DNA of 24,133 bases from a virus. Where the stretch lies: the IMG/VR virus record IMGVR_UViG_3300022602_000421, positions 1 through 24,133 of that record; one strand, given 5' to 3'. This document shows, piece after piece, positions 3,901 to 16,064 of the stretch (position 1 is the first letter of the stretch; every line of letters starts with the position of its first letter). The notes below the pieces were generated by a model. That model worked only from the letters and a program-made list of their open reading frames with translations, did not search any database and was not told the origin of the DNA. The position numbers were made by a program, and so were the translations under genes.

Positions 3901-5369
3901 TGGATATTATAGGCATCGAGAAAATCGATGAAACGTACAATAAGATAATCGCTGATCCTTCCATTATTATGGAGATGAGCGAACATTTCACGTTTGATGT
4001 TCCAGGCGCTAAGTTTATGCCCGCCTACAGAAACAAGTTTTGGGATGGTAAGATACGCTTACTCAATCCTATGACTTGCACCATATATGCTGGACTCAAT
4101 AAGTATATTGAAGAATTTGCTGAGAAACGTGGATATGAGATTGAATATAAGTCAGACTTTTCTGCTGAAGAGTTTTCTCTCAAAGAAGCAAACGAATTTA
4201 TCAGCAGTTTAAATATTCCCAGCAAATTTGAGCGTAGAGATTATCAAGACAGCGCATTTACATATGCTGTTCGTAATAGACGCGCTCTTATGTTATCACC
4301 AACTGCATCAGGCAAATCGTATATAATTTACTTACTTGTGAGGTACTATGAAGAATATCTTAGGGACAATAACTTCCGCGCTCTTATTATTGTGCCAACT
4401 ACTTCTTTGGTGCATCAGCTTGCCACTGATTTTATTGACTATGGTTATAGTGATTCCAGCAACATTCATAGAGTATTTGCAGGACAAGATAAGAAAACAG
4501 ATCATCCTATTGTCATATCGACATGGCAATCGATTTACAAACTGGACAAAAAGTATTTTGACTCGTTTAGCGTTGTAATCGGCGATGAAGCGCATCTTTT
4601 CAAAGCAAAATCTCTTACTAGCATTATGTCTAAGCTTTCTAACTGTCGGTATCGTTTTGGGTTTACTGGAACTCTCGACGATACTCAAACTCATAGACTT
4701 GTTCTGGAAGGTCTCTTTGGGTCTGTTAGAAAAGTCATTAGCACAGCTGAATTGATTGAACAAAAATATCTAGCACAGTTCCTTATCAAATGTATTGTTC
4801 TTAGATATTCAGATACCGATCGTCAGCTTGTTACAAAAATGGATTATCAAGCTGAAATGGATTGGCTTGTTCGTAACGAATCTCGAAATCGTTTCATAAA
4901 GAACTTGACTTTATCGTTAAAAGGTAATACACTATTATTATTTCAATACGTTGAAAAGCATGGCAAAGTATTATATGAAATGCTTAAAGACGAAGGTATA
5001 CCTGTTCATTTTGTTCATGGAGGAGTTGATGGCGAAGATCGTGAAGAAATACGTAGAATCGTGGAGCAGTCACCATCCAGTATTATCGTCGCTTCTTACG
5101 GGACTTTTTCTACAGGAGTTAACATTCGTAATTTGCATAACATTATATTTGCTAGTCCTTCAAAATCTAAAATAAGAAACTTACAGTCTATTGGTCGTGG
5201 CTTACGTAAGTCAGAAAGCAAAGATACTGCAACACTTTATGATATTAGTGATGATTTAGTTTGGAAGTCAAAAAAGAATTTTACCATCCAGCATTTTGCT
5301 GAGCGTGTGAGAATATACAATGAAGAGAAATTTGATTACAAGATTTACAAAGTTAATTTAAAGGTATAA
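3900..5369 (+). CDS. uvsW: RNA-DNA and DNA helicase UvsW
   Basis: 489 residues, superfamily 2 helicase. Motif I SPTASGKS at about 133-140, motif II DEAH at about 229-232, motif III FTGTL at about 255-259, and motif VI QSIGRGLRKSE near 430. The N-terminal 100 residues correspond to the UvsW substrate-binding domain (AKFMPAYRNKFWDGKIRLL). UvsW unwinds R-loops and branched DNA, shifting the phage from origin-dependent to recombination-dependent replication. It overlaps uvsY by one base and gene 55 by one base. Confidence 0.96.
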   Translation: MDIIGIEKIDETYNKIIADPSIIMEMSEHFTFDVPGAKFMPAYRNKFWDGKIRLLNPMTCTIYAGLNKYIEEFAEKRGYEIEYKSDFSAEEFSLKEANEFISSLNIPSKFERRDYQDSAFTYAVRNRRALMLSPTASGKSYIIYLLVRYYEEYLRDNNFRALIIVPTTSLVHQLATDFIDYGYSDSSNIHRVFAGQDKKTDHPIVISTWQSIYKLDKKYFDSFSVVIGDEAHLFKAKSLTSIMSKLSNCRYRFGFTGTLDDTQTHRLVLEGLFGSVRKVISTAELIEQKYLAQFLIKCIVLRYSDTDRQLVTKMDYQAEMDWLVRNESRNRFIKNLTLSLKGNTLLLFQYVEKHGKVLYEMLKDEGIPVHFVHGGVDGEDREEIRRIVEQSPSSIIVASYGTFSTGVNIRNLHNIIFASPSKSKIRNLQSIGRGLRKSESKDTATLYDISDDLVWKSKKNFTIQHFAERVRIYNEEKFDYKIYKVNLKV

Positions 5370-5926
5370 TGATGGATAAACCAAAAAGAAAAGTGCATTA
5401 CGTAAATAATAAAGATCTTTACGCTGCGATGGTTACGTATAAAGAAAAGATGAAAAAGGCACAAGACGAGGGGCGAACACTACCAAAAGTTCCTGATTAT
5501 GTTGGTATGTGTTTTCTAAAGATTTGCAACAAGTTAGCAACAAAACCAAACTTTGCAGGTTACTCTTATCGAGATGAAATGATTGCTGATGGTATAGAGA
5601 ATTGCGTATCAGCTGCTCATTCCTTTGATCCATCCAAGTCGAACAATCCTTTTGCTTACTTTACTCAGATTGCTTGGAATGCTTTTATCAGAAGAATTGC
5701 TAAAGAGAAGAAACAGTCATATATTAAGCATAAGAATTTCATTCATAGCAATCTGATGGATGGTCTTAATGAAGAAGTTAATATGACAGGAACTCCTATC
5801 CACAACGAATACTCTGATGAGATCATAAAAAACTTTGAAGAGAAGTTGACTAAAGTGGCAAAAAAGGGTAAGATAGGTCTTGAAAAATTCGTAGAGGATG
5901 ACATTGAAGATAGCTCTGATAACTGA
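5369..5926 (+). CDS. 55: Late-gene sigma factor gp55
   Basis: 185 residues, the same length as T4 gp55. YVNNKDLYAAM near the N-terminus and the core segment YRDEMIADGIENCVSAAHSF, with NPFAYFTQIAWNAFIRRI, match the sigma region 2-like part of T4 gp55 (EMIADGIEASIKGLHNFD in T4). gp55 directs host RNA polymerase to late promoters of the TATAAATA type, several of which occur in this window. T4 gp55 ends in a clamp-binding peptide (SLDFLYE); here GLEKFVEDD near the C-terminus may be the counterpart, which is inference. A second ATG at 5372 is an alternative start. The 3' end overlaps gene 47 by 29 bases. Confidence 0.94.
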   Translation: MMDKPKRKVHYVNNKDLYAAMVTYKEKMKKAQDEGRTLPKVPDYVGMCFLKICNKLATKPNFAGYSYRDEMIADGIENCVSAAHSFDPSKSNNPFAYFTQIAWNAFIRRIAKEKKQSYIKHKNFIHSNLMDGLNEEVNMTGTPIHNEYSDEIIKNFEEKLTKVAKKGKIGLEKFVEDDIEDSSDN

Positions 5927-10612: not shown

Positions 10613-10674
10613 ATTGTGATCTATTTCGTAATGTTGTTCGTATATATAACTGAACGCGAACATTGGAGGTCAAT

Positions 10675-11973
10675 ATGGTAAGAGTATTAGTTAAACAGAA
10701 ACTTGATGCAGAACACACGCTAGGCACATTTATCACATGCGCTGATTATGCTGATGAAATTATTACAGAAGATTGTGATCTTTATGCTCTAGATCCTCTT
10801 GATCCAACAAAAATGGATGAAGAGAATATTATTTTTAAGTTTCGCAAAAATGTTTTCACTCATGATGAACGTCGCCTTTGTTATGAAGGATTACGTCCAG
10901 CAGCAACTGAATCACAGAATCGTGGTTTAGCTGCAGGTCCACGTGGTGATCAACTTGGTCAAGAAGGACGTGGTAATCGCGACTGGGTTACTGCTGAACA
11001 AGAAGATCTTTTATCTTTCCTTGCTCGTCCATTAAATTCACTTGACGATGGTACATCAATCGAATCGATTCAAGAATATCATAAGACAAACAAGAAAGAA
11101 GAAACACGTGGTCGTGTTTGGTTGCGGTCAGAAGTAACTAAAGTATATCCTGAGTATCATGGCTGGTTTGATAAATGGCTCGTAGATGTAAAGAAGTTGT
11201 CTCGTGAACAACAGCTTGAAGAAGCATTGAAAATGTCAGATATGATTTCTGAGACAAATTATGCTCAGTCTGTTATGTCTGGTATCGCAGGATATTATGA
11301 TCGTTATCCACGTATTCCTTTCGGTCGTGCAACTTCTTACACTGAAAAGAATCTAGAAGCTTTCGCCAAGTCATATCCTTTCTTGCGTAAGCTCAATTCA
11401 CAGTTTAAGAAATTGTTGCCTGTTCGTTGGGGTAGACAGCGTAAAGAAGCTGATAAGCTCGATCCGCGTTTCTTGATTGATGAAACAGTATTCACTACAC
11501 TCACTGTCAATCATAACTGGCGTACAGCTTGTCATCGAGATGCTGGTGACTTGCATGAAGGTTTCTCTAACATCTGCGCCTTGGGTAAAGGATGGCAAGG
11601 CGGCGAGTTTATTCTCCCTGAGTTCCGCATTGCTGTTAAATTGCAGTCAGGCGATATGTTACTTGTTAACAACCATGGTGGTATTCATGGTAATGACGCT
11701 CTTGTCGGTGATGATAATGATCGTATGACTATCGTTGCTTACTTCCGCGAAAAGATGCTTGATCTCAAGTCTTGGGATTATGAAAATCTTCGTAAGCAAT
11801 ATATTGAAGAGCGTCGTCAAAATAAAGATCATAAGTACTATCGCCCGCTGTGGAATGGTGTTTCGCCTAGTATGTGGGAAGAACAAGAGTGGTATGATTA
11901 CATGAAGAAACACAATATGGAAGATCCATATGCTGAACACAAAGATGCATCTCTTGAGGATTTGTTTGCATGA
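10675..11973 (+). CDS. TET/JBP-family 2OG-Fe(II) dioxygenase (putative DNA base hydroxylase)
   Basis: 432 residues. The C-terminal catalytic half carries H287-R-D289 (TACHRDAGD), GWQGGEFILPEF, GDMLLVNNHGGIHGN (distal iron His334 or His338) and R350 in DRMTIVAYFR. This arrangement matches the phage branch of the TET/JBP family, whose known members oxidise the methyl group of 5-methylcytosine or thymine in DNA. The N-terminal 180 residues are unassigned. The last residues, ASLEDLFA, resemble a sliding-clamp-binding tail. GGAGG precedes the ATG at 10675. Its stop overlaps the start of a glycosyltransferase gene, suggesting successive steps of base hypermodification. No cytosine methylase or modified-pyrimidine synthase is in this window, so the substrate base is unknown. 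Confidence 0.8.
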   Translation: MVRVLVKQKLDAEHTLGTFITCADYADEIITEDCDLYALDPLDPTKMDEENIIFKFRKNVFTHDERRLCYEGLRPAATESQNRGLAAGPRGDQLGQEGRGNRDWVTAEQEDLLSFLARPLNSLDDGTSIESIQEYHKTNKKEETRGRVWLRSEVTKVYPEYHGWFDKWLVDVKKLSREQQLEEALKMSDMISETNYAQSVMSGIAGYYDRYPRIPFGRATSYTEKNLEAFAKSYPFLRKLNSQFKKLLPVRWGRQRKEADKLDPRFLIDETVFTTLTVNHNWRTACHRDAGDLHEGFSNICALGKGWQGGEFILPEFRIAVKLQSGDMLLVNNHGGIHGNDALVGDDNDRMTIVAYFREKMLDLKSWDYENLRKQYIEERRQNKDHKYYRPLWNGVSPSMWEEQEWYDYMKKHNMEDPYAEHKDASLEDLFA

Positions 11974-12755
11974 TTGATTATGAAATCGCTATTCCTTCCT
12001 ATAAGCGACCTGAAACTATTAAAAAGAAAACTCTGAAAGTTCTTGAGAGTTATAACATTGACCCTAATAAGATCACTGTTTTTGTAGCCAATGAAGAAGA
12101 GTATGATGCTTATTCTAAGTCATTGGCTACAACACCTATAAAGCGTATTGTGATAGGTGTTCCAACTATTGGAGCACAGCGTAATTTCATTGAGAAGTTT
12201 TATCCTGAAGGTACACGTCTTATGATGTTTGATGATGACATCGAAGAAGTGCAGAAAAAAATCTCTGAACAAAAGCTCGGAAGGGTTGACAATTTGGAGG
12301 AAGAGGTTATACTAAAAGGATTCAGTGAATGTGAAAAAGTTGGAGCGAAGACATTTGGTATCTACGCTGCTTCTAATGCATACTTTATGAAAGATCGTAT
12401 CTACACTGAATTGTGTTATATCATTGCTTCAATGTTTGGTGTTATTGTAGAACACAGTGATGATCTTGCTCGTGTTACAAACCATGGTGAAGACTACGAA
12501 TATTCTATTCGCCAGTATATTAAAAATGGTGCTGTTGTTCGTTTAGATAATTACACTGTTAAGTCTAACTATTACAAAGAAGATGGTGGTCTTCAAACAA
12601 TTCGCACCAAAGAATATGTTCATGAATCTATCAAGAAAATTGCAGAAATGTATCCTGATTTCTGCACAATGTATATTCGTGAAACAACTGGTATGGCTGA
12701 ATTGCGTTTAAAAGATACCAGATATGATGGAGCGACTTTAGAAGATTTATTTTGA
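11970..12755 (+). CDS. Glycosyltransferase next to TET/JBP (TAGT-like, putative DNA glucosylation)
   Basis: 261 residues, GT-A-like. IAIPSYKRPETI at the N-terminus is the usual nucleotide-sugar binding start, and MMFDDDI (about 85-91) supplies the DxD metal motif. TIGAQRNFI (about 66-74) and NHGEDYEY (about 170) are further likely active-site segments. Its ATGA overlap with the TET/JBP gene and its form fit the TET/JBP-associated glycosyltransferases described in phages, which are predicted to glycosylate hydroxymethylated bases. The C-terminus ATLEDLF repeats the end of the preceding protein using different codons. Family assignment is from memory of motifs; acceptor and sugar are unknown. 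Confidence 0.72.
   Translation: MIDYEIAIPSYKRPETIKKKTLKVLESYNIDPNKITVFVANEEEYDAYSKSLATTPIKRIVIGVPTIGAQRNFIEKFYPEGTRLMMFDDDIEEVQKKISEQKLGRVDNLEEEVILKGFSECEKVGAKTFGIYAASNAYFMKDRIYTELCYIIASMFGVIVEHSDDLARVTNHGEDYEYSIRQYIKNGAVVRLDNYTVKSNYYKEDGGLQTIRTKEYVHESIKKIAEMYPDFCTMYIRETTGMAELRLKDTRYDGATLEDLF
12286..12313 (+). promoter_or_regulatory. Possible internal sigma70-like promoter
   Basis: TTGACA (12286-12291) and TATACT (12308-12313), spacer 16, inside the glycosyltransferase coding region. Form and spacing match the intergenic early promoters of this window. It could give extra transcription of the downstream genes up to gene 45. A chance match inside coding sequence is possible. Confidence 0.35.
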
Positions 12756-13086: not shown

Positions 13087-13944
13087 ATGGAAATAAAAAT
13101 TGACATGGAAAAGTTGCGTGAACGTGGTTTGTTCGTAGCAACTCCAATGTATGGCGGTCAGTGCGCTGGTATGTTTGCTAAGTCATGCGCTGACTTATCT
13201 GCTATTTGTACTCAGTATGGTATTCCTTTACAGTTTTACTTTTTGTTTAATGAGTCTTTGATTACGCGTGCTCGCAATTATTGCTGCGATGAGTTTTATC
13301 GCGCTTCTGCGCAACATATGATGTTCATCGATTCGGACATCGGTTTCAATCCACAAGACGTTATTGCTCTAATGGCTCTTCAAGCGAATGAACCAGAGAA
13401 GTATGAGATCATCGGTGGTCCATATCCTAAGAAGTGCATCAGCTGGGAAAAAATTAAGCTTGCAGTTGATAAGGGTATTGCTGACGAAGATCCAAACGTG
13501 CTTGAGAAGTTCGTTGGTGACTATGTGTTTAATCCTAAAGGTGGTCAACAGTCAATTCGTATTGATGAGCCAGTTGAAGTTCTTGAAATTGGTACAGGAT
13601 TTATGATGATCACTAAAGATGCATTCACAAAGTTCAACGAAAAATATCCTGAATATCTGTATCGTCCTGACCATGTTCGTACAGAACATTTTGATGGTAG
13701 CCGTAAGATTATGATGTACTTCCAAGCAGAGGTTGATCCTAAGTCAGAACGCTATCTTTCAGAAGATTATTGGTTCTGTCAGAAAGCTCAGGAAGCAGGT
13801 ATCCGTACTTGGTTCTGCCCATGGATGAAGTTGCAACATGTTGGCAGCTATATCTTTGGTGGTTCATTAGCAGATCTTGCGACAATTGGTGCAGCAGCAA
13901 CAGCTGATCCAGGTTCGCTTGGTGGTAAGAAAAAGAAGAAGTGA
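13087..13944 (+). CDS. Second glycosyltransferase (GT-A fold)
   Basis: 285 residues. LFVATPMYGG (about 15-24) at the N-terminus, FIDSDIGFNPQD (DxD at 82-84), GTGFMMITKDAF as an acceptor-side strand, and SEDYWFCQKAQEAGI (about 224-238) with WMKLQHVGSY near the end are typical of GT-A glycosyltransferases found in T4-like phages. The C-terminus GGKKKKK is a strongly basic tail that could favour nucleic-acid contact. It is unlike the preceding glycosyltransferase in sequence, so two different sugar transfers, or one on DNA and one elsewhere, are possible. The gene starts three bases after the DUF3310-like gene. Confidence 0.78.
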   Translation: MEIKIDMEKLRERGLFVATPMYGGQCAGMFAKSCADLSAICTQYGIPLQFYFLFNESLITRARNYCCDEFYRASAQHMMFIDSDIGFNPQDVIALMALQANEPEKYEIIGGPYPKKCISWEKIKLAVDKGIADEDPNVLEKFVGDYVFNPKGGQQSIRIDEPVEVLEIGTGFMMITKDAFTKFNEKYPEYLYRPDHVRTEHFDGSRKIMMYFQAEVDPKSERYLSEDYWFCQKAQEAGIRTWFCPWMKLQHVGSYIFGGSLADLATIGAAATADPGSLGGKKKKK

Positions 13945-13955
13945 GGTAATATAGT

Positions 13956-14174
13956 ATGATGATTCAATTGACACACCCAGAACCAAATTATGAATTGTGG
14001 GTGGATGCTATGGATATTGTTGTGATGGAACGATACACTAAACCAAAGTCTATCATCATCACAGTGAATGACGAACGACCAAATGTTACGGCATTGGTTC
14101 TAAAATCAGGCAAGATTATGTCTTGTATGGAAACTCCATCTGAAATTATGGCAATTGTGAAAGGACAAATTTAA
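13956..14174 (+). CDS. Small FlbD-like protein of unknown function
   Basis: 72 residues. The pattern MIQLTHP..YELWVDAMDIVVMER, a TALVLKSGKI strand and ETPSEIMAIV at the end follows the small beta-rich FlbD-like layout (IxLT, I..ME, L.SG, V.E.P.E) that recurs in phages next to replication genes. FlbD is a flagellar protein of unknown biochemical role, so the similarity does not give a function. GAGG lies nine bases before the ATG. The stop shares a base with the gene 45 start. Confidence 0.68.
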   Translation: MMIQLTHPEPNYELWVDAMDIVVMERYTKPKSIIITVNDERPNVTALVLKSGKIMSCMETPSEIMAIVKGQI

Positions 14175-14836
14175 TGAAACTCGAAGCAAAAACATTGGCA
14201 GTTCTCAAGAACTATGCGCTGATCAATCCATCAATTCTTTTCAAGGAAGGTGATGTTATCTCAACAATCTCACCATCTAAGTCAATTCTCGCAAAGGCAA
14301 AGGTTCCAAATACTTTTAGCCGTCGCTGCGCAGTTTATGAATTGACAAAGCTTCTTGGTGGTATTTCTATCGCTGAAGATCCAGAAATTTCTTTTGATAC
14401 TGGTTCAGTTATTATCAAGGATAAGCGTAGCGTTCAGAAGATTCCTTATACTCCAGAGGAATCAATCAAAACTCCTCCAGAAAAGAATATCGTTCTTGGT
14501 TCAACAGCTGTTACTCTTTCTGTAACTGATGCTGATATTAAGAATGTTATTAAGGCAGCTGGTAACTATGGATTGCCTGAGATTGCTTTCGTTGGTGATG
14601 GTGAAACATTAGCATTCCAAGCAGTTGATGCTAAAAATCCTAACAGCTCATCATACAGCATTCCTGTCGGTACAACGGATAAGTCTTTCCGTGTTATCTT
14701 CAAGGTAGAAAACATTTTGAAGTTGATGGCTGGTGATTATCAAGTTGTTATTTGCGCCAAGCCTCTGGTTGCTCACTTCAAGAATGATGATATTGAGTAT
14801 TGGGTAGCAGTGGAAACAACGTCAAATTTTGATTGA
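14174..14836 (+). CDS. 45: Sliding clamp gp45
   Basis: 220 residues, near T4 gp45 (228). It begins MKLEAKTLAVLKNYALINPS, the typical start of T4-like clamps, with further family segments ILAKAKVPNTF, VYELTKLLGGI and a C-terminal YWVAVETT. gp45 trimers encircle DNA, tether the polymerase gp43, and activate late transcription by contacting gp55 and gp33. It is followed by the clamp loader genes 44 and 62 as in T4. Two enzymes encoded upstream carry C-terminal peptides that look like ligands for this clamp. Confidence 0.95.
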   Translation: MKLEAKTLAVLKNYALINPSILFKEGDVISTISPSKSILAKAKVPNTFSRRCAVYELTKLLGGISIAEDPEISFDTGSVIIKDKRSVQKIPYTPEESIKTPPEKNIVLGSTAVTLSVTDADIKNVIKAAGNYGLPEIAFVGDGETLAFQAVDAKNPNSSSYSIPVGTTDKSFRVIFKVENILKLMAGDYQVVICAKPLVAHFKNDDIEYWVAVETTSNFD

Positions 14837-14898: not shown

Positions 14899-15132
14899 AT
14901 GAGAAATGCTAGAATTCCAAGAGATGTTGTAGTCCAAACTATTTTTGGAGAAGAAATTAGGCAGCAAAAATGTCGTATTTGCAAAATCGAAAAACCAATT
15001 TTCGAATTTTACTGCAAAAGTGATAGTTATGAAGCCAGAGAAGATTGTAAAAAATGCTGGAAAATGTTTAATGGTAATTTTAAATCTTCAAAATCTTTTT
15101 CAGAATACATCCGTAAATACGGAGAAAAGTGA
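14899..15132 (+). CDS. Small zinc-finger protein
   Basis: 77 residues with C25-RI-C28 and C50-KK-C53, a four-cysteine zinc ribbon. The spacing and the segment IEKPIFEFY between the pairs resemble the N-terminal zinc ribbons often seen in phage HNH and endonuclease VII-like proteins, but no nuclease domain follows. TGGAG precedes the ATG at 14899; an in-frame ATG at 14887 lacks such a site. The stop overlaps the start of gene 44 (TGATG). A nucleic-acid or protein-binding role near the clamp loader is inference. Confidence 0.7.
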   Translation: MRNARIPRDVVVQTIFGEEIRQQKCRICKIEKPIFEFYCKSDSYEAREDCKKCWKMFNGNFKSSKSFSEYIRKYGEK

Positions 15133-16064
15133 TGCAAGAATTTCTTTGGGTTGAAAAATATCGTCCTAAGACTATTGAAGATACAATTTTACCAGCTGAT
15201 CTAAAAACAACTTTTCAACAGTTTGTTGATCAGCAAAACATTCCTAATCTTATTCTATCTGGTACAGCTGGTGTTGGTAAAACAACAGTAGCTCGTGCTA
15301 TGTTAGAACAACTTGGTTGTGACTATATCGTAATTAACGGAAGTATGAATGGCAACATCGATACTCTGCGTAATGAAATTCTAAACTTCGCCTCCACTAT
15401 CTCTTTCACTGGAGGTCGAAAGTATGTTATCCTCGATGAGGCAGATTATCTTAACGCAAACTCAACACAACCAGCTCTTAGAAACTTTATGGAAGAATTC
15501 AGCGCTAATTGCGGATTCATCCTAACATGTAACTTTAAGAATAGGATTATCGAACCACTCCATTCGCGTTGTTCGGTTGTAGATTTTAAGATCAGCAAAA
15601 AAGATATGAGCAAGCTTGCTGCTGAGTTCTTCAAGCGTGTTCAAACAATCCTTTCAACTGAGAATGTAGAATATGACAAAGCAGTTGTAGCTGAAGTCAT
15701 CAAGAAACATTTTCCAGATTGGCGACGTGTTCTGAACGAACTGCAGCGTTATGCAGCCACAGGTAAAATTGATAGCGGTATCTTATCTAACATTCAAGAA
15801 ACTTCTTTGAAAGAGCTTATTGTTTTGATCAAGGATAAGAACTTCACAGCTGTTCGTAAGTGGGTTGCTGAAACATCTGAAAACACAGATGATGTTTTTC
15901 GTAAGCTCTATGATATTTGCGCTGAATACTTCACTTCAGCTTATATTCCAGCGTTAGTTCTAACTATCGCAAAGTATCAGTATCAGGCTGCATTTGCTGC
16001 AGATCATGAAGTGAATTTGGCTGCTTGTTTGGCAGAGATTATGATCGAGTGCGAGTTCAAATGA
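15132..16064 (+). CDS. 44: Clamp loader ATPase subunit gp44
   Basis: 310 residues. It starts MQEFLWVEKYRPKTIEDTIL, the standard opening of T4 gp44 and RFC small subunits. Walker A GTAGVGKTT at 44-52, Walker B LDEAD at 101-105, and the SRC motif (LHSRCSVVDF) near 140 are all present. Four gp44 and one gp62 open the gp45 clamp and place it on primed DNA. GGAG at 15121 supports the ATG at 15132. The stop overlaps the gene 62 start by four bases. Confidence 0.96.
   Translation: MQEFLWVEKYRPKTIEDTILPADLKTTFQQFVDQQNIPNLILSGTAGVGKTTVARAMLEQLGCDYIVINGSMNGNIDTLRNEILNFASTISFTGGRKYVILDEADYLNANSTQPALRNFMEEFSANCGFILTCNFKNRIIEPLHSRCSVVDFKISKKDMSKLAAEFFKRVQTILSTENVEYDKAVVAEVIKKHFPDWRRVLNELQRYAATGKIDSGILSNIQETSLKELIVLIKDKNFTAVRKWVAETSENTDDVFRKLYDICAEYFTSAYIPALVLTIAKYQYQAAFAADHEVNLAACLAEIMIECEFK

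Follow-up and report, generated by a model that had tools for sequence, protein, structure and literature searches.

Two neighbouring enzymes encoded in a stretch of phage DNA of 24,133 nucleotides (the window), a dioxygenase of the TET/JBP family (TET) and a TET-associated glycosyltransferase (TAGT), end in nearly the same short peptide. We interpret this shared end with considerable confidence as a gp45 clamp-interacting peptide, which would tether the base-modifying enzymes to the sliding clamp of the phage. What we observed is the motif itself and its conservation; it is identical with the gp43 tails of related phages, covaries with the presence of gp45 and is used almost exclusively by enzymes that act on DNA. 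Physical binding and coupling to replication are inferred from these comparisons. The window, a 24 kb piece of a T4-like phage genome, has the relevant features listed in Table 1.

Table 1. Positions of the enzymes, their tails and clamp-related features; positions refer to the window unless a locus is named.
Feature	Position	Strand	Basis or remark
TET/JBP-family 2OG-Fe(II) dioxygenase	10675..11973	+	ATG at 10675; TTG at 10663 is a possible alternative start upstream
TET C-terminal tail ASLEDLFA, proposed gp45 clamp-interacting peptide	11947..11970	+	homologue conservation; lone helix after low-pLDDT linker
TET-associated glycosyltransferase (TAGT)	11970..12755	+	PF20691; ATG overlaps TET stop (ATGA)
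TAGT C-terminal tail ATLEDLF, proposed gp45 clamp-interacting peptide	12732..12752	+	homologue conservation
Sliding clamp gp45, proposed receptor for both tails	14174..14836	+	PF09116, profile matches, fold
Clamp loader large subunit, gp44-like	15132..16064	+	named only by its sequence and by position in annotated relatives (same gene order in DLP6)
GLEKFVED near the end of a gp55-like sigma factor (5369-5926)	5876..5899	+	possible degenerate clamp-binding site
P12024L-group TAGT (QLEIF / QTQLF / QTTLF)	L185:2595-3353, L277:2501-3259, L278		bacterial beta-clamp-binding pattern

Conservation of the C-terminal tails of TET and TAGT

The TET protein matched Pfam PF12851 (E 1.5e-17) and its fold matched CcTet and human TET2. 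Residues H287 and D289 (HxD), H338 and the 2OG arginine R350 were invariant in 71 homologues, so that the HxD...H iron triad is complete. The TAGT protein matched PF20691 (E 4.4e-16; 59.9 bits against a cut-off of 27.5). A search for a C5-cytosine methyltransferase (PF00145) in nine TET-bearing related records (G001, G002, G003, G004, G006, DLP6, C48C1, Cr30 and S-CBWM1) revealed none. The substrate of TET may be thymine, or 5mC made elsewhere.

An earlier, sequence-only reading of the window had placed the two ends correctly; they read KDASLEDLFA in TET and DGATLEDLF in TAGT, each directly before the stop codon. It had also argued from differing codons that the shared end does not stem from a recent DNA duplication. 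This is borne out by the window pair, in which three of the five LEDLF codons differ (TET/TAGT: CTT/TTA, GAG/GAA, GAT/GAT, TTG/TTA, TTT/TTT), and by the homologues. A scan for the pattern [ASTNVDGE][STNDI][LI][DESAGQ]x[FLM][FYL]x0-2 at the C-terminus, applied to the window and to genomes, detected TET and TAGT and no further tail among the 37 non-overlapping ORFs of the window; the frequency of the pattern inside proteins predicts 0.03 tails against the two observed, and a chance origin was rejected. The tail is not a general trait of genes in this region either, as the neighbouring DUF3310-like protein, phrog_1574 protein, peptide deformylase and gp45 lack it.

The decisive evidence for a real tail is comparative. 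Relatives of TET and TAGT were gathered from viral contigs and named phages, and their ends were compared with the pattern [LI]-x-x-[FLM]-[FYLM]-x0-2. The alignment of homologues, which the sequence-only reading had named as a check, revealed a conserved end that fits this pattern in 93 of 98 distinct TET and 44 of 49 distinct TAGT sequences. Entropy at the L, F and F positions of the tail was 0.19-0.43 bits, compared with mostly 1.5-3.5 bits in the preceding linker, which varies among homologues in both sequence and length; the residues preceding the L/F positions vary freely. Exceptions are the TET of locus L132, which has no tail, and that of Cr30, which ends in GATLF only.

The AlphaFold2 model of TET showed a confident core domain (mean pLDDT 86) and values of about 55-61 for the last 12 residues, with LEDLF predicted as a lone helical turn (427-431) after a low-confidence linker. 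The core of the tail, L-x-x-[F/L]-[F/Y] with acidic and small neighbours, is as in the gp45 clamp-interacting peptide (CIP/SCBM). The near-C-terminal position on a divergent flexible linker, which is a further criterion for such a site, is also met, judged by the entropy and length of the linker and its pLDDT of 55-61. The tail does not belong to the TAGT family as such, since it is absent from the distant TAGT-like proteins of Aeromonas 65, avDM6 and Vibrio henriette, phages in which gp45 is present and a TET cassette is not known. TAGT homologues of actinobacterial phages also lack it.

Relation of the tails to the gp43 polymerase and the gp45 clamp

The polymerase gp43 of T4 ends in ASLDFLFG, with the same residues as the TET and TAGT tails and likely the same pocket. 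Its SLDFLF peptide occupies a hydrophobic gp45 pocket, where it forms a single-turn helix that the lone helical turn of the TET model resembles; removal of the last six residues of gp43 abolishes its association with the clamp (PMC12746103). In T4 the tails of gp43, gp55 and gp33 can replace one another; in gp55 the linker that carries the tail is divergent and varies in length (PMC2988020). Among gp43 proteins of related phages, 70 of 75 distinct ends fitted, with the consensus [AS][ST]L[ED]xFF (C48C1 AATLEDFFG, DLP6 IATLDSFFA, Cr30 KADLSSLFD, G001 NTLESFFDD, G003 KASLEDFFG, G016 TASLEDFF). The gp43 gene belonging to the window lies outside of it, so that a match of the window tails to their own polymerase is an inference drawn from relatives, in which a polymerase of the same phage does share the peptide.

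Two of these relatives are near-complete genomes, G001 (134 kb, 196 ORFs) and G003 (153 kb, 183 ORFs). In each of them exactly three ORFs were tailed, namely gp43, TET and TAGT, with 0.06 and 0.15 expected, respectively. Variants of the end are shared within a phage: in L128/G049 an FL end is common to gp43, TET and TAGT (DLSAFLV, SLAGFL, SLADFLV), gp43 and TAGT of Cr30 have DLSxLF in common (DLSSLFD, DLSKLF), and an LF end is found in both TET and TAGT of the window and of L120-L123. The end classes of TET and TAGT matched in 38 of 43 cases, which was reached by none of 20,000 permutations in a test that ignores phylogeny. By these sequence comparisons the tails drift together inside a genome, with the class matching confounded by phylogeny.

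The sliding clamp gene starts 1.42 kb past the TAGT stop codon, in agreement with the distance of about 1.4 kb given by the sequence-only reading. Its product matched the gp45-slide_C domain (PF09116) and the profiles of RB69 gp45 (1b77/1b8h, E 1.7e-39), T4 gp45 (1czd) and 6drt; 1b8h is a peptide complex of RB69 gp45, and 6drt is T4 gp45 with a ligase peptide. The AlphaFold2 model (pLDDT 94) was matched to T4 gp45 1czd by Foldseek (E 9.8e-20, TM 0.9). We compared the pocket residues described for RB69 gp45 (PMC3012046) and found the window protein hydrophobic at four of five positions (Y39 to L39, I107 to I106, F109 to L108, V217 to W210), whereas W199 is replaced by S/C and the basic R32 by I. 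The hydrophobic pocket is thus probably there, but altered compared with RB69.

Presence of the tail follows presence of the clamp. All seven large tailed genomes (DLP6, C48C1, Cr30, G001-G004) contain gp45, whereas gp45 was not found in seven complete phages with TET/TAGT (S-CBWM1, Acadian, Indlovu, Altadena, Bolt007, HTVC112P and P12024L). None of the latter has a clear gp43-like tail, the TAGT end LEDLLP of S-CBWM1 being doubtful. The sequence-only reading had asked whether the end is kept only where gp45 is present; this is the pattern obtained, although phylogeny confounds it. Between TAGT and the clamp the window encodes a phrog_1574 protein (13087-13944) of unknown function, which ends in KKKKK and has no clamp-like tail.

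Further proteins with clamp-like ends

Of 29 distinct amino acid:DNA transferases (ADDT, PF18724), 26 have an end of this type, compared with 2.5% of other ORFs. A scan of all loci revealed that unrelated enzymes which replace or join TAGT in TET cassettes are tailed as well. A 259-residue family encoded directly after TET (L084:11320-12099; also in L011, L012, L013, L015, L016, L032 and L034) has a clamp-like tail in five of six sequences; it matched no Pfam or PHROG entry, and its sequence gives hints of a methyltransferase fold. In a 345-residue family with a weak match to the ADDT PHROG (L038:11305) the tail was recognised by eye in 4/4, and a 363-residue family (L063:2658) ends in LECFM. 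If the enzymes are tethered to the clamp, a gp43-like tail would provide a simple sequence rule for spotting unknown DNA-modifying enzymes in uncharacterised phages, which here flagged the ADDT proteins and families without a Pfam match.

A 104-residue protein with a proline-rich linker is encoded near gp43 (L212:2131-2445 and five relatives). It ends in TLDKFFE or TLDIFFE in five of the six and in TLDKFF in the sixth, and is a candidate for a new clamp-binding protein. The Dam-type adenine methyltransferase of C48C1 (CDS0038, L155:33480-34364) ends in STLDAFFG; its three homologues have no tail, and Dam (1/4, C48C1 only) was not accepted as a regular carrier.

The sequence-only reading had also compared the tails with the end of T4 gp55, SLDFLYE. 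This motif is present, but T4 gp55 ends in SLDFLYEAND, so that it is not strictly terminal. A clamp epitope of gp55 has been described (PMC2988020), and G[LVI]EKF recurs near the end of most gp55 homologues in the clade of the window, where it possibly represents a degenerate clamp-binding site.

Proposed clamp tethering of base modification and its alternatives

Since the base-modifying enzymes share the tail by which the polymerase grips the clamp, they probably ride the clamp and modify new DNA during synthesis. Docking of TET and TAGT on the phage clamp in the manner of the polymerase appears highly likely to us, in the absence of binding data. The sequence-only reading had suggested that the enzymes ride the clamp and act right behind the fork; homologue conservation, the match to gp43 tails, co-occurrence with gp45 and the linker and helix support this interpretation, whereas binding and the modification of nascent DNA at the fork via the clamp remain inferences.

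Each of the two enzymes would carry, on a flexible linker, a clamp-interacting peptide of the kind used by T4 gp43, gp55 and gp33, and would dock its L-x-x-F-F/L-F residues in the hydrophobic pocket of one gp45 protomer. A gp45 trimer has three of these pockets, so that modifiers could sit on a ring together with the polymerase. Tethered in this way, the enzymes would stay with newly made phage duplex DNA, where TET would oxidise the base and TAGT would then add to the product during or soon after strand synthesis; in relatives this second step would fall to an amino acid:DNA transferase or to some other enzyme. Phage TET and hypermodification enzymes must find phage DNA and modify nearly all target bases ahead of restriction cleavage. 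If they are tethered to the clamp, this would account for a modification that is fast, complete and specific to phage DNA.

The tail might instead bind gp45 mainly on clamps engaged in late transcription or repair, or compete for the pocket to regulate polymerase exchange, without modification at the fork. Late transcription uses gp45 via the gp55 and gp33 tails (PMC2988020), clamp-bound gp43 of T4 undergoes exchange (PMC12746103), and gp55 of the same phages has the possible GLEKF site. We nevertheless regard this alternative as unlikely, because the terminal motif is found chiefly in gp43 and in enzymes that modify DNA, and occurs in no other ORF of two whole genomes. Docking on a different shared partner, such as a scaffold or the clamp loader, is compatible with the lack of binding data and with the two gp45 pocket residues that differ from RB69/T4; it is very improbable given that the known ligand of the gp43 tail is gp45 (PMC12746103, PMC3012046) and that the tail tracks gp45 presence. 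Among TET homologues, the invariant leucine of the tail is written with all six leucine codons and the five-residue core with 72 distinct 15-mers in 93 TETs, indicating that selection acts on the peptide. Although the motif is short and the TET and TAGT genes overlap, a likeness of the gene ends that has no function and is due to chance or common ancestry can be practically discounted, since the frequency is far above chance, the same end occurs in unrelated families and gp43, and the peptide is conserved across roughly 90 distinct TETs while its codons are not.

Coupling of a modifier to the clamp, as preferred here, has a precedent in the T4 alpha-GT, which binds gp45 and co-purifies with it (PMC13216743, confirming the cited Sommer et al. 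2004). Clamp binding was judged not to be what mainly makes alpha-GT dominant in vivo, the share of glucosylation being mostly set by expression strength (PMC13216743). Like TAGT as proposed here, alpha-GT is a DNA base-modifying glycosyltransferase on the phage clamp, but it belongs to a different family and acts, without a TET enzyme, on hmC made at the nucleotide level. It ends in FDIITK and has no terminal clamp peptide, so that a tail of this kind cannot account for its gp45 binding; the window enzymes, both of which are tailed, do not fit this type of coupling. DNMT1 and other eukaryotic chromatin enzymes bind PCNA. DNMT1 is likewise a DNA-modifying enzyme held on a clamp by a short peptide, but clamp, motif (PIP box) and chemistry are different. 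The CIPs of T4 gp43, gp55, gp33 and DNA ligase are also C-terminal hydrophobic-acidic peptides on divergent linkers (PMC2988020, PMC12746103, PMC7892883), but they sit on a polymerase, transcription factors and a ligase, whereas the tails described here sit on base modifiers (TET, TAGT, ADDT and others). An incomplete literature search revealed no account of phage TET, TAGT or ADDT proteins with a clamp tail, nor of TET cassettes whose enzymes have a clamp address in common at their ends. For TET this agrees, within the papers searched, with the statement of the sequence-only reading that such a coupling is not known to be described; for glycosyltransferases the statement needs care because of the T4 alpha-GT.

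We lean towards the wider view that the tail addresses base modifiers in general to the clamp. Almost all post-replicative modifiers of the T4-like phages that have a TET cassette (TET, TAGT, ADDT proteins and three or more uncharacterised families) would independently have gained or kept the polymerase clamp tail, so that the hypermodification pathway would be assembled on the sliding clamp, and at least one group without detected gp45 (P12024L) would convergently end its TAGT in the host beta-clamp motif Q-x-x-[LI]-F. The bacterial beta-clamp-binding pentapeptide is Q-x-x-L-F. TAGT of the Nonlabens phage P12024L ends in SNQLEIF and that of two relatives in SNQTQLF and SNQTTLF (n=3), ends which we take to fit this pattern; they would be an apparent counterpart of the pentapeptide that binds the host clamp and are not the motif of the window. 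A search for prophage relatives of the P12024L TAGT found none. These three sequences suggest, as no more than a lead, that a phage without its own clamp may use that of its host. The TAGT proteins of P12024L and L277 are 80% identical overall, and of their last five residues only the Q and the final F are the same.
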